Source: Candidatus Treponema merdequi (GTDB taxonomy: Bacteria > Spirochaetota > Spirochaetia > Treponematales > Treponemataceae). From it: a stretch of DNA of 64,000 nucleotides. A program made the translations under genes and the position numbers. Positions 7,692 through 60,689 of this stretch are shown in pieces; within the stretch, counting starts at the first letter, position 1; each line of letters opens with the position of its first letter. The stretch lies in NCBI GenBank assembly GCA_018064525.1, contig JAGHVB010000020.1, positions 1 to 64,000 on the forward strand. Direction: 5' to 3'. The notes under the pieces were generated by a model. It was not told where the DNA came from. It did no database searches and saw only the letters and a list, made by a program, of their open reading frames with translations.

Positions 7692-10600
7692 ATGTTCCGT
7701 ATTTATGTTGAAAGACAGTCTGGTTTTCAGAACGAGGCTAGTCGCATTTTTTCAGAAATCAAAGGTTTTTTGGGCATTTCAGGAGTTACTGGAGTGCGTT
7801 ATTTCAATCGCTACGATGTAGAAAATGTTTCTGACGCAGTTGCAAAAGCTGCAGTTCAGAGAATTTTTTCTGAGCCTCAGAGTGATGCAGTTACTTATGA
7901 AAAAGTAAATGTAAAATCTTCTGATACAGTCATCATCTGGGAATTTCTTCCAGGTCAGTATGATCAGCGTTCAGATTCTGCTGAGCAGTGTCTCAAGCTT
8001 TTGCGTGAGAGTATGGCAAAGTCTGTTAAGGTTGGAACTTTACCGCCTAGAGTTCGCTGTGCAAAAATGGTTGTCCTTTCAGGAAAGGTTGCTGCAAAAG
8101 ATCTCAAAAAAATTCAGGACTATCTCGTAAACCCGGTTGATTCAAGATTGACTGATGACAAGATTCCGGAAACTCTCGAAATGAAAACAGAAACTCCTGC
8201 TGATATTCCGACAGTTGAAGGTTTTATTAAATTTAAAAAGCCAGAGCTCGAAGCTTATCTTGAAAAGATGGGCCTTGCAATGGATTATGCAGACATTAAA
8301 TTTTTACAGGACTATTTCAAAGACGAAGGACGCGACCCGACTGTTACAGAAATTCGTGTACTCGATACTTACTGGTCAGACCACTGTCGTCATACAACAT
8401 TCTTGACAGAATTGAAAGACATCAAAATTGAAAAAGGTCCATACGAAAAACTTTTCAAAAAATCTCTCGACAATTATACAAACATGCGTACAGATTTGTA
8501 TGCAGGACGCAAAGACAAACCTGTTACACTCATGGATATGGCTGTAATCGGAATGAAATATCTTAAAAAACACGGCAAGCTCGAAGACATGGAAGTGTCA
8601 GAAGAAAACAATGCATGCTCTGTTTATATTGATGTTCATTACACAACAGATAAAAAAGGCCGCGCGATCGACAAGAATTCTCCAAAGGCAACAGAGCGCT
8701 GGCTTTTGATGTTCAAAAACGAAACACACAATCACCCGACAGAAATCGAACCATTTGGTGGAGCTGCAACTTGTATCGGTGGTGCAATCCGCGATCCTCT
8801 TTCTGGACGCAGCTGGGTTTATCAGTCAATGCGTATCACAGGAGCAGCAGATCCTACAGTTCCACTTTCAAAAACAATCAAAGGAAAATTACCTCAGCTT
8901 AAACTTGTTCGCGAATCAGCTCAGGGATTTTCTTCTTACGGAAACCAGATCGGTCTTACAACAGGTCAGGTTCAGGAAATCTATCATCCGGGTTATGCCG
9001 CAAAACGAATGGAACTTGGTGCAGTAATTGCAGCCGCTCCATTAGACACAGTAATGCGTGAAAGACCGGAACCGGGAGATATCGTAATTCTTCTTGGTGG
9101 TGGAACTGGACGCGACGGTATCGGTGGTGCTACAGGTTCTTCAAAAGTTCACACAGAAAAATCTGTTACAACTGCTGCTGCAGAAGTTCAGAAAGGAAAC
9201 GCTGTTGAAGAAAGAAAGATTCAGCGTTTGTTCAGAAATAAAGATGTAAGTTTGATGATCCGCCGCTGTAACGACTTTGGTGCAGGCGGTGTTTCAGTTG
9301 CAGTCGGAGAACTTGCTCCTGGACTCGACATCAATCTCGACGCAGTTCCAAAGAAATACGAAGGCTTAAACGGAACAGAGCTTGCTATTTCTGAATCACA
9401 GGAACGCATGGCTGTTGTTGTGCGCCAGAAAGACGTTCAGAAATTTATTAAAGCTGCGGCAGCAGAAAACTTGAATGCTGTTGTTGTTGCAACAGTTACA
9501 GATACAAACCGCCTCGTAATGAAATGGCGTGGAAATACAATCGTAGACATCAACCGCGACTTTTTGGATGCAGCCGGTGCTCATCACGAAGCAAAAGCTG
9601 TAATCGAAAGTCCTACAGCTCCTTCTACATCACCGCTTGTAAAACCGCTCGACAGCGTTGCAAAAAAACTCACAAAGACAGCAACTGCAAAAGCAGTTCA
9701 GTCTGCATGGCTTGATAACATGAAAGACCTTGCAGTATGTTCACAGCGCGGACTTGGTGAACGCTTTGACGGTTCAATCGGATCTTCTTCTGTATTGTTC
9801 CCTTATGGCGGAAAATATCAGTGCACACCAGAAGCCGGAATGGCAGCTAAGATTCCTGTCATGTCACCACGCGAAACTTCTACAGTCAGCACAATGTCAT
9901 ACGGATTTGATCCACGCGTAAGCCAGTGGTCACCATGGCACGGAGCTCAGGTTTCTGTTCTTTCTTCACTTGCAAAACTTACATGTCTTGGAACAGATCC
10001 TTCTACAGCACGCCTTTCATTCCAGGAATTCTTTGGCCGTGCAGTTGATGCAAAAAAATGGGGATATCCTGCAAGTGCACTTCTTGGTTCCATCGATGCA
10101 CAGGTTGCAATGGGAACTGCTTCAATCGGCGGTAAGGACTCAATGTCTGGAACATTTGAAAAGATCAATGTTCCGCACACACTTGTTTCATTTGCAGTAG
10201 GACATGAAGAAGTAGAAAATGTAAACGGCGGTTCTTTCAAAAAAGCTGATTCAAGTCTTTATATCGTTCAGGTTCCTTATTCAGAAGAACTTGCTCCAGA
10301 CTTTGATGTATTTACAAAGAATGCAAAAGCTCTGGTGGAATTAAATAAAGCAGGAAAAATCCTTTCAATGTATCCTGTATGTGCCGGTGGAATTGCAGAA
10401 GCAGTAACAAAGATGGCAATGGGAAACAGAATCGGATGCGAAATCAATTTCATCCCAGCTTCATGTACAGCTCTCAACATTAAAAAGACAGCTGCAAAAA
10501 CAACAGCTAAAGCAAAAGTTTCAAAAGAAGAAAAACTTGCTGCTGTAAAAGCAGGAACAAACCAGGATCTTTTCACACCGCTTTATGGTTCTATCATCGT

Positions 10601-11741
10601 AGAAACAGACAGCGCAATTGAAAACGATCCACGCTTTGCATCAGCAACAGTATGCAAGATCGGAAAAACAGTAAAAGCAGAAACTATTACAGTTGCAGGA
10701 AAAACAAAAGCTTCAACTGTTACAGTAAAACTTTCTGACTGTGAAAAAGCATGGGAAGGAACTTTATCAGAAGTATTCCCTCCTGTATCAAATGCAAAAC
10801 CACAGGAAGAACTTCCAAAGTTTGCAACAGATGTTCATCGTTCACTTTCAGAAGCACGCAAGAATCCTTCATTCAATATCGCTCGTCATCATCCTCGCGT
10901 TGTAATTCCAGTATTCCCTGGAACAAACTGTGAGTTTGATATGGCACGTGCATTCAATCTTGCAGGTGCTGATACAAGAATCGTTGTATTCAGAAACAAT
11001 ACACCGCAGGCACTTTCAGATTCACTTGCAGAACTTGAAAAGCAGATCAAACATACACAGATTCTTGCTCTTGCCGGAGGATTCTCTGCAGGAGATGAAC
11101 CAGACGGATCTGGAAAATTTATTGCAAACGTTCTGCGCGAAGGACGTATTTCTGAACAGGTTATGCGCCTTTTGAAAAAACGTGATGGTCTTGTACTTGG
11201 AATCTGTAACGGATTCCAGGCATTGATCAAGACTGGACTTGTTCCTTATGGTGAAATCAAAGAACCTTCTGGTGACATGCCTACTTTGACATTCAATCAG
11301 GTTGGACGCCATATCAGCCGTATCGTAAGAACACGTATGGTAAGTGCAATGAGCCCTTGGGCACAGAACGCTTCTGTAATTGATGACAGAATTCACCTTG
11401 TTCCGGTTTCACACGGAGAAGGACGAATCATCGTTAGTCCTCGTCTTGCAAAAGAACTCTTTGAAAAAGGACAGATTTATACACAGTATGTTGATGAAAA
11501 GGGAAATCCTGCAATCACAGAACCAGACAACCCGAACGGTTCTATGTATGCAATTGAAGGTATGACAAGCCCTGACGGACACGTACTTGGAAAGATGGGA
11601 CACTCAGAACGTACAGTTGGAACTGGAATGAACGGTTCATCATGCGACCTTATTAAAAACGTTGCAGGCGACCCTCTTAACAATCCAAACGAAAACAGCT
11701 GTCAGAACTTGTTCGCAGCTGGTGTTGCTTATTTCAAATAA
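7692..11741 (+). CDS. purL: Phosphoribosylformylglycinamidine synthase, single-chain (PurL with PurQ-type amidotransferase)
   Basis: A 1349-residue protein of the large single-chain form seen in proteobacteria and eukaryotes, rather than the split PurS-PurL-PurQ form. It makes formylglycinamidine ribonucleotide from FGAR, ATP and glutamine, step four of purine synthesis. The N-terminal part is the PurS-like domain, residues about 170-1040 the two AIRS-like halves (DTYWSDHCRHTTF, then FKNETHNHPTEIEPFGG and GGGTGRDGIGGATGSS), and residues about 1065-1349 the class I glutamine amidotransferase. The nucleophile is Cys1172 in GICNGFQ and GGFSAGDEPDG is also present. A Lys/Ala-rich insertion lies near residues 930-960. 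The gene has its own promoter and terminator. Confidence 0.97.
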   Translation: MFRIYVERQSGFQNEASRIFSEIKGFLGISGVTGVRYFNRYDVENVSDAVAKAAVQRIFSEPQSDAVTYEKVNVKSSDTVIIWEFLPGQYDQRSDSAEQCLKLLRESMAKSVKVGTLPPRVRCAKMVVLSGKVAAKDLKKIQDYLVNPVDSRLTDDKIPETLEMKTETPADIPTVEGFIKFKKPELEAYLEKMGLAMDYADIKFLQDYFKDEGRDPTVTEIRVLDTYWSDHCRHTTFLTELKDIKIEKGPYEKLFKKSLDNYTNMRTDLYAGRKDKPVTLMDMAVIGMKYLKKHGKLEDMEVSEENNACSVYIDVHYTTDKKGRAIDKNSPKATERWLLMFKNETHNHPTEIEPFGGAATCIGGAIRDPLSGRSWVYQSMRITGAADPTVPLSKTIKGKLPQLKLVRESAQGFSSYGNQIGLTTGQVQEIYHPGYAAKRMELGAVIAAAPLDTVMRERPEPGDIVILLGGGTGRDGIGGATGSSKVHTEKSVTTAAAEVQKGNAVEERKIQRLFRNKDVSLMIRRCNDFGAGGVSVAVGELAPGLDINLDAVPKKYEGLNGTELAISESQERMAVVVRQKDVQKFIKAAAAENLNAVVVATVTDTNRLVMKWRGNTIVDINRDFLDAAGAHHEAKAVIESPTAPSTSPLVKPLDSVAKKLTKTATAKAVQSAWLDNMKDLAVCSQRGLGERFDGSIGSSSVLFPYGGKYQCTPEAGMAAKIPVMSPRETSTVSTMSYGFDPRVSQWSPWHGAQVSVLSSLAKLTCLGTDPSTARLSFQEFFGRAVDAKKWGYPASALLGSIDAQVAMGTASIGGKDSMSGTFEKINVPHTLVSFAVGHEEVENVNGGSFKKADSSLYIVQVPYSEELAPDFDVFTKNAKALVELNKAGKILSMYPVCAGGIAEAVTKMAMGNRIGCEINFIPASCTALNIKKTAAKTTAKAKVSKEEKLAAVKAGTNQDLFTPLYGSIIVETDSAIENDPRFASATVCKIGKTVKAETITVAGKTKASTVTVKLSDCEKAWEGTLSEVFPPVSNAKPQEELPKFATDVHRSLSEARKNPSFNIARHHPRVVIPVFPGTNCEFDMARAFNLAGADTRIVVFRNNTPQALSDSLAELEKQIKHTQILALAGGFSAGDEPDGSGKFIANVLREGRISEQVMRLLKKRDGLVLGICNGFQALIKTGLVPYGEIKEPSGDMPTLTFNQVGRHISRIVRTRMVSAMSPWAQNASVIDDRIHLVPVSHGEGRIIVSPRLAKELFEKGQIYTQYVDEKGNPAITEPDNPNGSMYAIEGMTSPDGHVLGKMGHSERTVGTGMNGSSCDLIKNVAGDPLNNPNENSCQNLFAAGVAYFK

Positions 11742-59062: not shown

Positions 59063-59449
59063 CTAAAACGAAATCGCGTCAAGTGATGAGCTTTCTGCTT
59101 TTTCATTTTTGTTTTTTATTATAACAAATATTTTATTTGGCGCACATGAGAGCCACTGTCCGGGTTTAGAAATTTTTCCGCCTGTAATGCACGTTTTGTT
59201 CGGGCAAGGTGAATCAGAAATCCAGACATTCTTGTCTTTAATTACTACTGTAGTTTTTCCGATTATTCCATCAATAGAAACAACCTGGTTTCTGCCAAGG
59301 TCATATTCGTATTCCGCATCAGGCGAAGAAATGTATAAAACCGGGCTTTCTTTTCCTGAAAATATAGTACGCAGAAAGACAAAAAAAATAACCAAAAAAA
59401 TTAAAATAATGAGAAAATCTGCTGTTTTTAATTTGAATTTTATTGACAT
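59063..59449 (-). CDS. NusG-domain-II-containing membrane protein
   Basis: A 128-residue protein with one N-terminal membrane helix (FLIILIFLVIFFVFL, residues 12-26) and a NusG domain II-like beta barrel outside or at the membrane (PF07009). That domain shows DGIIGKTTVVIKDKNVWISDSPCPNKTC and a final PNKIFVII strand; the two Cys residues are typical. The role of this domain is unknown. The frame is open upstream to 59659 but the added 70 residues overlap the hairpin-rich region, so I choose ATG 59449. No strong ribosome binding site is visible. Confidence 0.7.
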   Translation of the reverse strand: MSIKFKLKTADFLIILIFLVIFFVFLRTIFSGKESPVLYISSPDAEYEYDLGRNQVVSIDGIIGKTTVVIKDKNVWISDSPCPNKTCITGGKISKPGQWLSCAPNKIFVIIKNKNEKAESSSLDAISF

Positions 59450-59471
59450 ATTTGCATTCTCATTGTATATT
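59443..59471 (+). promoter_or_regulatory. Consensus promoter of the candidate small RNA
   Basis: TTGACA at 59443-59448, 17-nt spacer, TATATT at 59466-59471, identical hexamers and spacing to the tRNA-Thr promoter at 60661. The -35 box overlaps the start codon of the NusG-II gene on the other strand. Confidence 0.65.
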
Positions 59472-59477
59472 ATATTT

Positions 59478-59572
59478 AGCTTGTAAATAAGCTGATAAAC
59501 TCTCTCCGATGTCCAGCTTGCTGGACGGTAGAGCTCTTGGAAAGCGTTGCTCTTCGAGAGCTCTATTTTTTT
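59478..59572 (+). ncRNA. Candidate small structured RNA of about 95 nt
   Basis: The predicted transcript starts near 59478, 7 nt after the promoter, and folds into three hairpins: AGCTT/AAGCT (59478-59493), GTCCAG/CTGGAC with a CTTG loop (59511-59526), and the terminator TAGAGCTCT/AGAGCTCTA (59529-59565) followed by seven T residues. AGAG of the terminator stem can also pair with upstream CTCT, giving two alternative folds. GGA occurs twice, which is the core of CsrA-binding sites. It does not match SRP, 6S, tmRNA or RNase P RNA as I know them. The region reads antisense to an open frame on the minus strand, which I judge not coding. Confidence 0.5.
59529..59572 (+). terminator. Terminator of the candidate small RNA
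   Basis: A perfect 9-bp stem TAGAGCTCT / AGAGCTCTA with a 19-nt loop, followed by seven T residues (59566-59572). Confidence 0.7.
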
Positions 59573-59648
59573 GCCCTGATGTATTTTCCGCAGCTTCAGC
59601 TTTTTCAGGGCTTTGTAAACCGGCATCACTTCTGCGACAGCCGGTTTT
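59573..59648 (+). other. Two further hairpins between the candidate small RNA and cysE
   Basis: GCCCTGA / TCAGGGC (59573-59579 with 59605-59611) and ACCGGC / GCCGGT (59619-59624 with 59640-59645), each followed by a short T-run (three and four). They could be back-up terminators for the small RNA. On the minus strand they could end cysE transcription or be a processing region. Confidence 0.45.
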
Positions 59649-59659
59649 GTAAATTCCAC

Positions 59660-60544
59660 TTATTTTGTAAAAACTGTTCCGGCTGGTACTGATTTTGTGA
59701 CCCAGGTATTACCGCCGATCGTGCTTCCTTTTCCGATTACAGTTTCTCCGCCGAGAATTGTGGCTCCGGCATAGATTGTAACGTCATCTTCGACAGTAGG
59801 ATGGCGTTTTGCGTTCTGCAGTTCTTTTTTTACGCTGAGGGCGCCGAGTGTGACACCCTGGTATATTTTTACGTTGTTTCCGATTACAGTTGTTTCTCCG
59901 ATTACGATTCCCGTACCGTGGTCGATAAAGAACGATTCTCCGATTTTAGCGCCCGGATGAATGTCGATTCCAGTTTTTCCGTGAACGTGTTCGCTCATGA
60001 TACGCGGAATGATCGGAACACCGTTTTTGTATAAAAAGTATGCAATTCTGTGAACGACGATTGCTTCAAGTCCTGGGTAAGAAAGGATAACTTCTTCTTT
60101 GTTCATTGCGGCAGGGTCTCCGCGGACTGCGGCTGCGACATCGAGCTGTACAAGTCTTCTGATTTCCGGAATTTCTTTGATTAAAGCGCAGACTGTTTTT
60201 TCGGCGAGCGGGTAGCAGTGTGAGTTCTGGATGCTTGTTTTTTCGCTGTCTGTGGAATTTGCCCCACCGGCATCTTTGTTTGTTACTACAAAGACGAGTG
60301 CTTTCTGGATTTCTGTAGTCAAAATCGAAATTATTCTGTTTACATGAAGTCCTGTAATGTAGCGGAGGTTACCGGTCCCGATGTTTTCTTCATATTTAAA
60401 ACCCGGAAAAATCAGTGACTGAAGGTCCTGGAGTACAGAAACTACATTCTGTCTGTTCGGAAAGTTTTCGGCTCCGGATCTGTTGATTCCGCCCTGCTTT
60501 TCGTAAGATTCCATTATGTCGTCAATCATTGCGTCTATATTCAT
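59660..60544 (-). CDS. cysE: Serine O-acetyltransferase
   Basis: A 294-residue enzyme that acetylates serine with acetyl-CoA for cysteine synthesis. ATG 60544 with AAAGGAT upstream is preferred to the open frame start at 60589. The C-terminal half is the left-handed beta-helix of hexapeptide repeats (IDIHPGAKIGESFFIDHGTGIVIGE and GNNVKIYQGVTLGAL), with the catalytic His and Asp. A GANST stretch about 70 residues after the start carries a copy of the dispersed 9-mer, in a part where serine acetyltransferases vary. It has no cysK next to it. Another 9-mer touches its stop codon. Confidence 0.95.
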   Translation of the reverse strand: MNIDAMIDDIMESYEKQGGINRSGAENFPNRQNVVSVLQDLQSLIFPGFKYEENIGTGNLRYITGLHVNRIISILTTEIQKALVFVVTNKDAGGANSTDSEKTSIQNSHCYPLAEKTVCALIKEIPEIRRLVQLDVAAAVRGDPAAMNKEEVILSYPGLEAIVVHRIAYFLYKNGVPIIPRIMSEHVHGKTGIDIHPGAKIGESFFIDHGTGIVIGETTVIGNNVKIYQGVTLGALSVKKELQNAKRHPTVEDDVTIYAGATILGGETVIGKGSTIGGNTWVTKSVPAGTVFTK

Positions 60545-60660
60545 AAAAATATCCTTTTCTAAAATATAGCAAAAAAAACATGAAAGCAAAAGTGAAAAAG
60601 CAGATGATTTTTCAAAGGAATTTTAAGGCTTAAAAATTCCTCTGCCGGCCTTAAATTCTA

Positions 60661-60689
60661 TTGACACAAACTCTCTATTTGTATATATT
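60661..60689 (+). promoter_or_regulatory. Consensus promoter of tRNA-Thr
   Basis: TTGACA at 60661-60666, 17-nt spacer, TATATT at 60684-60689. The expected start lies about 25 nt before the mature tRNA; the promoter may also serve rpmG and the genes after it. Confidence 0.75.

Follow-up and report, generated by a model that had tools for sequence, protein, structure and literature searches.

Genes and signals at the locus

The window, a stretch of 64,000 nucleotides of Candidatus Treponema merdequi DNA, contains a predicted gene for a small RNA (sRNA) that lies between a convergent cysE-like acetyltransferase gene and a divergent gene for a NusG_II-domain protein (Table 1). The 5' end of the sRNA is predicted near 59477-59478. 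Upstream, the hexamers TTGACA (59443-59448) and TATATT (59466-59471) are separated by a 17-nt spacer, as the initial annotation had proposed. The promoter of the tRNA-Thr gene (60661-60689) uses identical hexamers at the same 17-nt spacing, in agreement with the likeness noted earlier. A promoter scan of the window alone stays within chance (3 found versus 3.7 expected). A TTGA..TANNNT promoter precedes 143 of the 149 homologous genes, and a T run of at least five residues follows 137 of the 149. The next gene downstream is the cysE-like gene on the minus strand, and no protein gene comes next on the plus strand. The sRNA was also described as more GC-rich than its surroundings; this holds against the upstream side (0.48 versus 0.27) but not against the downstream side (0.48).

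Three further features surround these signals. The -35 box of the sRNA overlaps the apparent ATG start of the divergent NusG_II gene at 59443-59449. A promoter-like site is located on the minus strand at 59498-59469. The spacer of the tRNA-Thr promoter contains AAACTCTCT, a part of the sRNA core, probably by chance.

Table 1. Coordinates of the sRNA gene, its signals and neighbours in the window, and of the complementary sites in the phage contig L168
Feature	Coordinates	Strand	Basis
Sigma-70 type promoter of the sRNA, TTGACA-17-TATATT	59443..59471	+	Hexamers present; similar promoter at homologous genes
sRNA gene, ~95 nt	59477..59572	+	Fold z -4.6; covariance-model match
Hairpin 1 (AGCTTGTAAATAAGCT), within the invariant 5' module	59477..59494	+	Fold, alignment, double-sided change in L251
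ATAAACTCTCTCCGAT, single-stranded invariant pairing region	59495..59510	+	Unpaired in fold; near-invariant in 38 aligned genes; mobile-element complementarity
Hairpin 2 (GTCCAG....CTGGAC), covarying	59511..59526	+	Both sides changed in 5/5 counted pairs
Hairpin 3 and U tract, intrinsic terminator, covarying	59527..59572	+	Both sides changed in 10/12 pairs
cysE-like acetyltransferase, convergent neighbour	59660..60589	-	Pfam hexapeptide repeats; same family at 87/146 loci
NusG_II-domain protein, divergent neighbour, radA next	59063..59449	-	PF07009; NusG_II/radA families at 79/146 loci
L168 sites (positions in L168)	9374-9412, 9913-9951, 11202-11240	coding strand	Intergenic; two directly before Shine-Dalgarno

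Predicted fold and covariation of the sRNA

The 97-nt strand folds at -38.0 kcal/mol, compared with -22.9 kcal/mol for shuffled sequences (z = -4.6), and none of 200 shuffles is as stable. The predicted fold consists of three hairpins and a run of seven T residues (59566-59572), which corresponds to the three stems and terminator read from the sequence initially. Hairpin 1 and the single-stranded GAUAAACUCUCUCCGAU compose a 5' module that is almost invariant across species. Among 149 distinct genes, a set partly gathered by a motif scan, the 5' part is 97% identical, compared with 34-43% for the flanks.

The covarying hairpins 2 and 3 argue for a conserved RNA structure. In the pair counts of the alignment, 96.3% of the cells are paired and double changes number 133, compared with 32 in shuffles. 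The covariation score of 0.51 (0.22 when shuffled) is reached by 0 of 500 shuffles, and sliding the pairing register abolishes the signal. This support stems from hairpins 2 and 3, with hairpin 1 near-invariant in that alignment; in the sister-genus copy L251, both arms of hairpin 1 are changed together (AGATTG..CAATCT). Conservation of a minus-strand reading frame in place of base pairing, which had been named as one of the observations that would count against an RNA gene, does not apply because no frame is open throughout the family. Across the 149 homologs and both strands, the best two frames are open in 92 and 96 genes, and base pairing is conserved in hairpins 2 and 3.

Two functional suggestions made from the sequence fare less well. 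The competition of CTCT...AGAG with the terminator stem is present in the sequence of this species but is not a conserved switch, as the terminator stems of most relatives lack AGAG. Close relatives do not retain the GGA found in the terminator stem, and the second GGA is a base-paired arm of hairpin 2 that varies together with its partner strand; both observations speak against a CsrA-binding role. At 59530-59565 and in the homologs, the terminator apex is often AGCGTTGCT or AGTGTTACT; this is a mini-stem of 3 bp that covaries and is capped by a conserved GUU loop. In the divergent clade L252-L254 (near 1521), the RNA retains AAAACTCTCTCC without GATG, which suggests that CUCUCUCC is the minimal pairing core.

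Distribution in Treponemataceae

Rfam searches at gathering and permissive thresholds yielded no significant family; the sole match, ctRNA_p42d at 13 bits, is insignificant. The SRP, 6S, tmRNA and RNase P RNA models score below threshold, as do CsrB and all other Rfam families, consistent with the initial view that the RNA belongs to none of those four. The open-access literature searched describes no conserved small RNA family for Treponema. A covariance model, of the kind proposed in the initial annotation, matches the window at 59477-59573 with 102 bits. It recovers one to three copies of the RNA per genome in 169 of the 196 genomes of the genus and in 79 of the 84 better ones. In 247 genomes of the phylum, the RNA is confined to four genera of Treponemataceae, three of them sister genera. 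Named carriers include T. bryantii, T. ruminis, T. berlinense, T. porcinum and T. socranskii.

A DNA search likewise matches nearly all same-genus genomes, with the strongest similarity in the -10 box, in hairpins 1 and 2 and in the single-stranded stretch between them. Each matched locus is the same gene, composed of the promoter, AGCTTGTAAATAAGCT, GATAAACTCTCTCCGAT, GTCC..GGAC and a terminator of species-variable sequence. At about two thirds of the loci (98 of 146), the gene adjoins the convergent cysE-like gene and/or the divergent NusG_II/radA genes, as in the window; the remaining copies are located elsewhere. This shared ancestral locus marks the sRNA gene as an old, vertically inherited chromosomal gene. 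The conserved signals and the lack of an Rfam match confirm, at the level of sequence-based prediction, a real and previously uncatalogued sRNA gene that has a promoter and an intrinsic terminator of its own and is presumably expressed. The initial interpretation is thus partly supported, and it missed the invariant 5' pairing module and the complementary sites described below.

Sites complementary to the 5' module in mobile elements

Weak matches in host genomes that were not RNA genes are located just 3' of a P4-family phage primase gene. A pattern for this site variant occurs at 29 places in 200 genomes, compared with one for the reversed control. At 22 of the 29 loci, the site follows a primase homolog encoded on the same strand, so the primase mRNA would carry the complement of the sRNA. 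The L182 and L198 sites lie within coding sequence and were rejected as chance matches. The core of the primase-linked sites is fixed by the search pattern itself; bases outside the pattern, GGACA before the site and GCT and TT after it, are also conserved, mostly at 71-100%.

As a check for bias, primase relatives were collected regardless of the site, and 27 have enough 3' sequence. A site occurs within 140 nt of the stop codon in 13 of them, with duplex z values of -3.3 to -12.8; one of these, L430, is a partly deleted form. The near-stop sequences of the other relatives score like shuffled sequences. Four of the 27 have a site 300-450 nt farther on, as judged by coordinates, and ten have no complementary site. 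Among primase relatives, the site is therefore frequent without being ubiquitous, a module that has been gained and lost. In L195 and L199 (around 1500), the complementary AUCGGAGAG occupies the loop of a hairpin behind the prophage primase that resembles an intrinsic terminator.

Sites are also found away from the primase gene. L168, a 54-kb viral contig with portal and terminase genes, has TCGGAGAGAGTTTATCAGCTT... at three intergenic positions, always on the coding strand (Table 1). This sequence is the reverse complement of the sRNA 5' end, and one of the three copies is perfectly complementary to the sRNA over 32 nt. A terminase search for the host of L168 gave no match, and an L168-like leader was found in 0 of 196 host genomes. 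In L185, L201, L413 and L415, the site is located in the spacer behind an HK97-type capsid gene. The T. bryantii plasmid pTB1 has a site together with an apparent decayed primase end, and the L188 site lies at a gene of no assigned family, suspected from its appearance alone to be a plasmid gene. The IMG/VR contigs L422 and L425 also contribute sites. Those directly ahead of a Shine-Dalgarno sequence are L168 sites 2 and 3 and the sites of L185, L413, L422 and L425. A match in MT836807 was dismissed as a chance match in GC-rich DNA, and the L169 and L171-L176 matches and most loci of one further candidate-site set were discarded as chance.

L422 (near 1331) and L425 (near 624, reverse strand) have in common a stretch of ~75 nt, ACTGCCATTCGGTGTGAGCATTTACAGAGAGAG..TTTATCAGCTTG..TATAAGCARGAAGGAG, ahead of unrelated genes. 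In one of the two contigs, the gene behind this stretch encodes a bacterial-looking YifB/ComM-like ATPase. The stretch is possibly a mobile leader element.

The complementary sites sit in untranslated regions (UTRs), and no promoter was noticed beside them by eye. Predicted duplexes between the sRNA and the sites have energies of -42 to -64 kcal/mol, compared with about -13 to -23 kcal/mol for shuffled sites. The mobile-element sites are complementary to the pairing region of a core sRNA, a conserved single-stranded seed whose predicted partners are encoded elsewhere. Base pairing of the 5' module over 30-40 positions is strongly predicted with mobile-element mRNAs, at the prophage primase 3' UTR, the capsid-gene spacer and the intergenic spacers of the 54-kb phage contig.

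Host targets and Hfq

In 2.4 Mb of the genome G063, translation starts show no excess of complementary 8-mers, and the duplex energies there match those obtained with shuffled seeds. Apart from the sRNA gene itself, these 2.4 Mb contain no complement of more than 13 nt. ATCGGAGA occurs at ten G063 starts versus 4.8 expected, and a permutation that keeps the Shine-Dalgarno core gives eight. A host Shine-Dalgarno regulon read through GGAGAGAGTT..ATG was rejected because such matches are rare (27 in 59 genomes versus 8 for the reversed control). Host targets would thus be few or recognized through a short seed.

Hfq (PF17209) was detected in none of 21 genomes, and the control search was positive in 5 of 14. 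The sRNA is accordingly not classed as Hfq-dependent. The supposed Borrelia hfq is a misannotation (PMC10319736).

Relation to known regulatory RNAs

Phage-encoded anti-sRNAs are a known strategy, exemplified by AgvB, a small transcript in its own right that acts with Hfq against GcvB in E. coli O157 (PMC4104026). The treponeme case resembles AgvB in that RNA from a mobile element complements the region through which a core sRNA binds mRNAs. It differs in the placement of the sites, which are embedded in the UTRs of several unlike elements, in the 30-40 nt span of the complementarity and in that no Hfq was found. CisR, a 3'UTR-derived and Hfq-assisted host sRNA of Vibrio cholerae, pairs with the cep mRNA of CTXphi (PMC13250501). 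Pairing of a host sRNA with phage mRNA is shared with CisR, as a prediction only in the treponemes, whereas the treponeme sRNA has an intergenic gene with a separate promoter, and its phage sites recur in unlike elements. Since both AgvB and CisR work with Hfq, neither provides a class to which the treponeme sRNA belongs.

The P4 CI RNA and the plasmid ctRNAs are encoded by the element itself. The likeness is a small antisense RNA paired with the transcript of a replication gene, here the P4-family primase; the treponeme RNA, in contrast, is a core chromosomal gene at a conserved locus, and its assignment as a P4-type immunity RNA was rejected. LhrC and RsaE are sRNAs with C-rich seeds. Like them, the treponeme sRNA has an unpaired pyrimidine seed that could pair with sequences resembling GGAG, but no Shine-Dalgarno regulon was detected for it in the 2.4 Mb of G063.

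Discussion

The observations are best explained by a core trans-acting sRNA that operates without Hfq. RNAs of mobile elements would bind its pairing region, most likely as decoys (sponges); we assign this reading a probability of about one half. The sRNA would most likely act by base pairing through its 5' module, and the pairing would proceed without Hfq. Transcripts of mobile elements would bind the same module and titrate the sRNA, which may relieve its host targets or leave it unable to act on the element. Decoys are favored because the sites recur in unlike elements, which argues for a benefit to the element, because their position relative to the Shine-Dalgarno sequence is not fixed, because internal mismatches are frequent and because some sites occupy terminator-like loops (L195 and L199). 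Sites just before a Shine-Dalgarno sequence fit regulation of phage genes as well as a decoy. The analysis shows the gene, its conservation, its structure and the complementarity of the sites; that the RNA is expressed, that it pairs in the cell and which way the effect runs are inferred.

The sRNA could instead be a core silencer of mobile elements: by pairing with transcripts of phages and prophages, it would reduce the translation or stability of these transcripts. Control of CTXphi by CisR provides a precedent for such action of a host sRNA on a phage (PMC13250501). Long near-perfect complementarity is found only in mobile elements, within replication and capsid operons, and no host regulon is visible. 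We nevertheless consider silencing rather unlikely. Single mutations could remove the sites, but these persist or reappear in unlike elements, in some cases with G-U changes under which pairing is preserved; an arms race should also diversify the sRNA, but it is nearly invariant.

Mobile elements may alternatively exploit the host sRNA to process, stabilize or time their own polycistronic mRNAs, for example through RNase III cutting in the duplex or activation of the next gene. The intergenic position of the sites, often just ahead of a Shine-Dalgarno sequence, and the 32-nt perfect duplex in L168 would suit such a use. It appears doubtful given that the distance to the Shine-Dalgarno sequence varies even at the homologous capsid locus (L185 and L413 versus L201 and L415) and that many sites are located in 3' UTRs or terminator-like loops.

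That the sRNA mainly binds a protein through its 5' module, with the mobile-element antisense sites blocking this binding, is improbable. Near-absolute invariance of ~30 nt without a visible host mRNA regulon would be consistent with such binding, but no protein partner is known, and the L252-L254 clade lost the GAUG part and kept CUCUCUCC. A shared 30-nt DNA site for attachment or protein binding, with incidental RNA-like features, is strongly disfavored: some genomes do have a pair of like-oriented sites 18-21 kb apart, but in two of these genomes the paired sites adjoin the capsid and primase genes of a prophage, not its ends, which led to rejection of the attachment-site idea, and site orientation is fixed relative to primase transcription and hairpins 2 and 3 covary.

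Within the decoy reading, the sRNA may tentatively be regarded as a hub of conflict with mobile elements. Antisense decoys embedded in UTRs and directed at its invariant 5' module would have arisen repeatedly in prophages, in a phage and possibly in plasmids. If so, the sRNA would be either a defense RNA or a regulator that the elements must switch off. The recurrence of sites in unlike mobile elements would represent an unusual convergence of several elements on one host sRNA, and this convergence would make the effect of the sRNA on them directly testable. As a near-universal sRNA with an invariant pairing module in an order in which Hfq was not found, it provides a first handle on riboregulation in Treponema.
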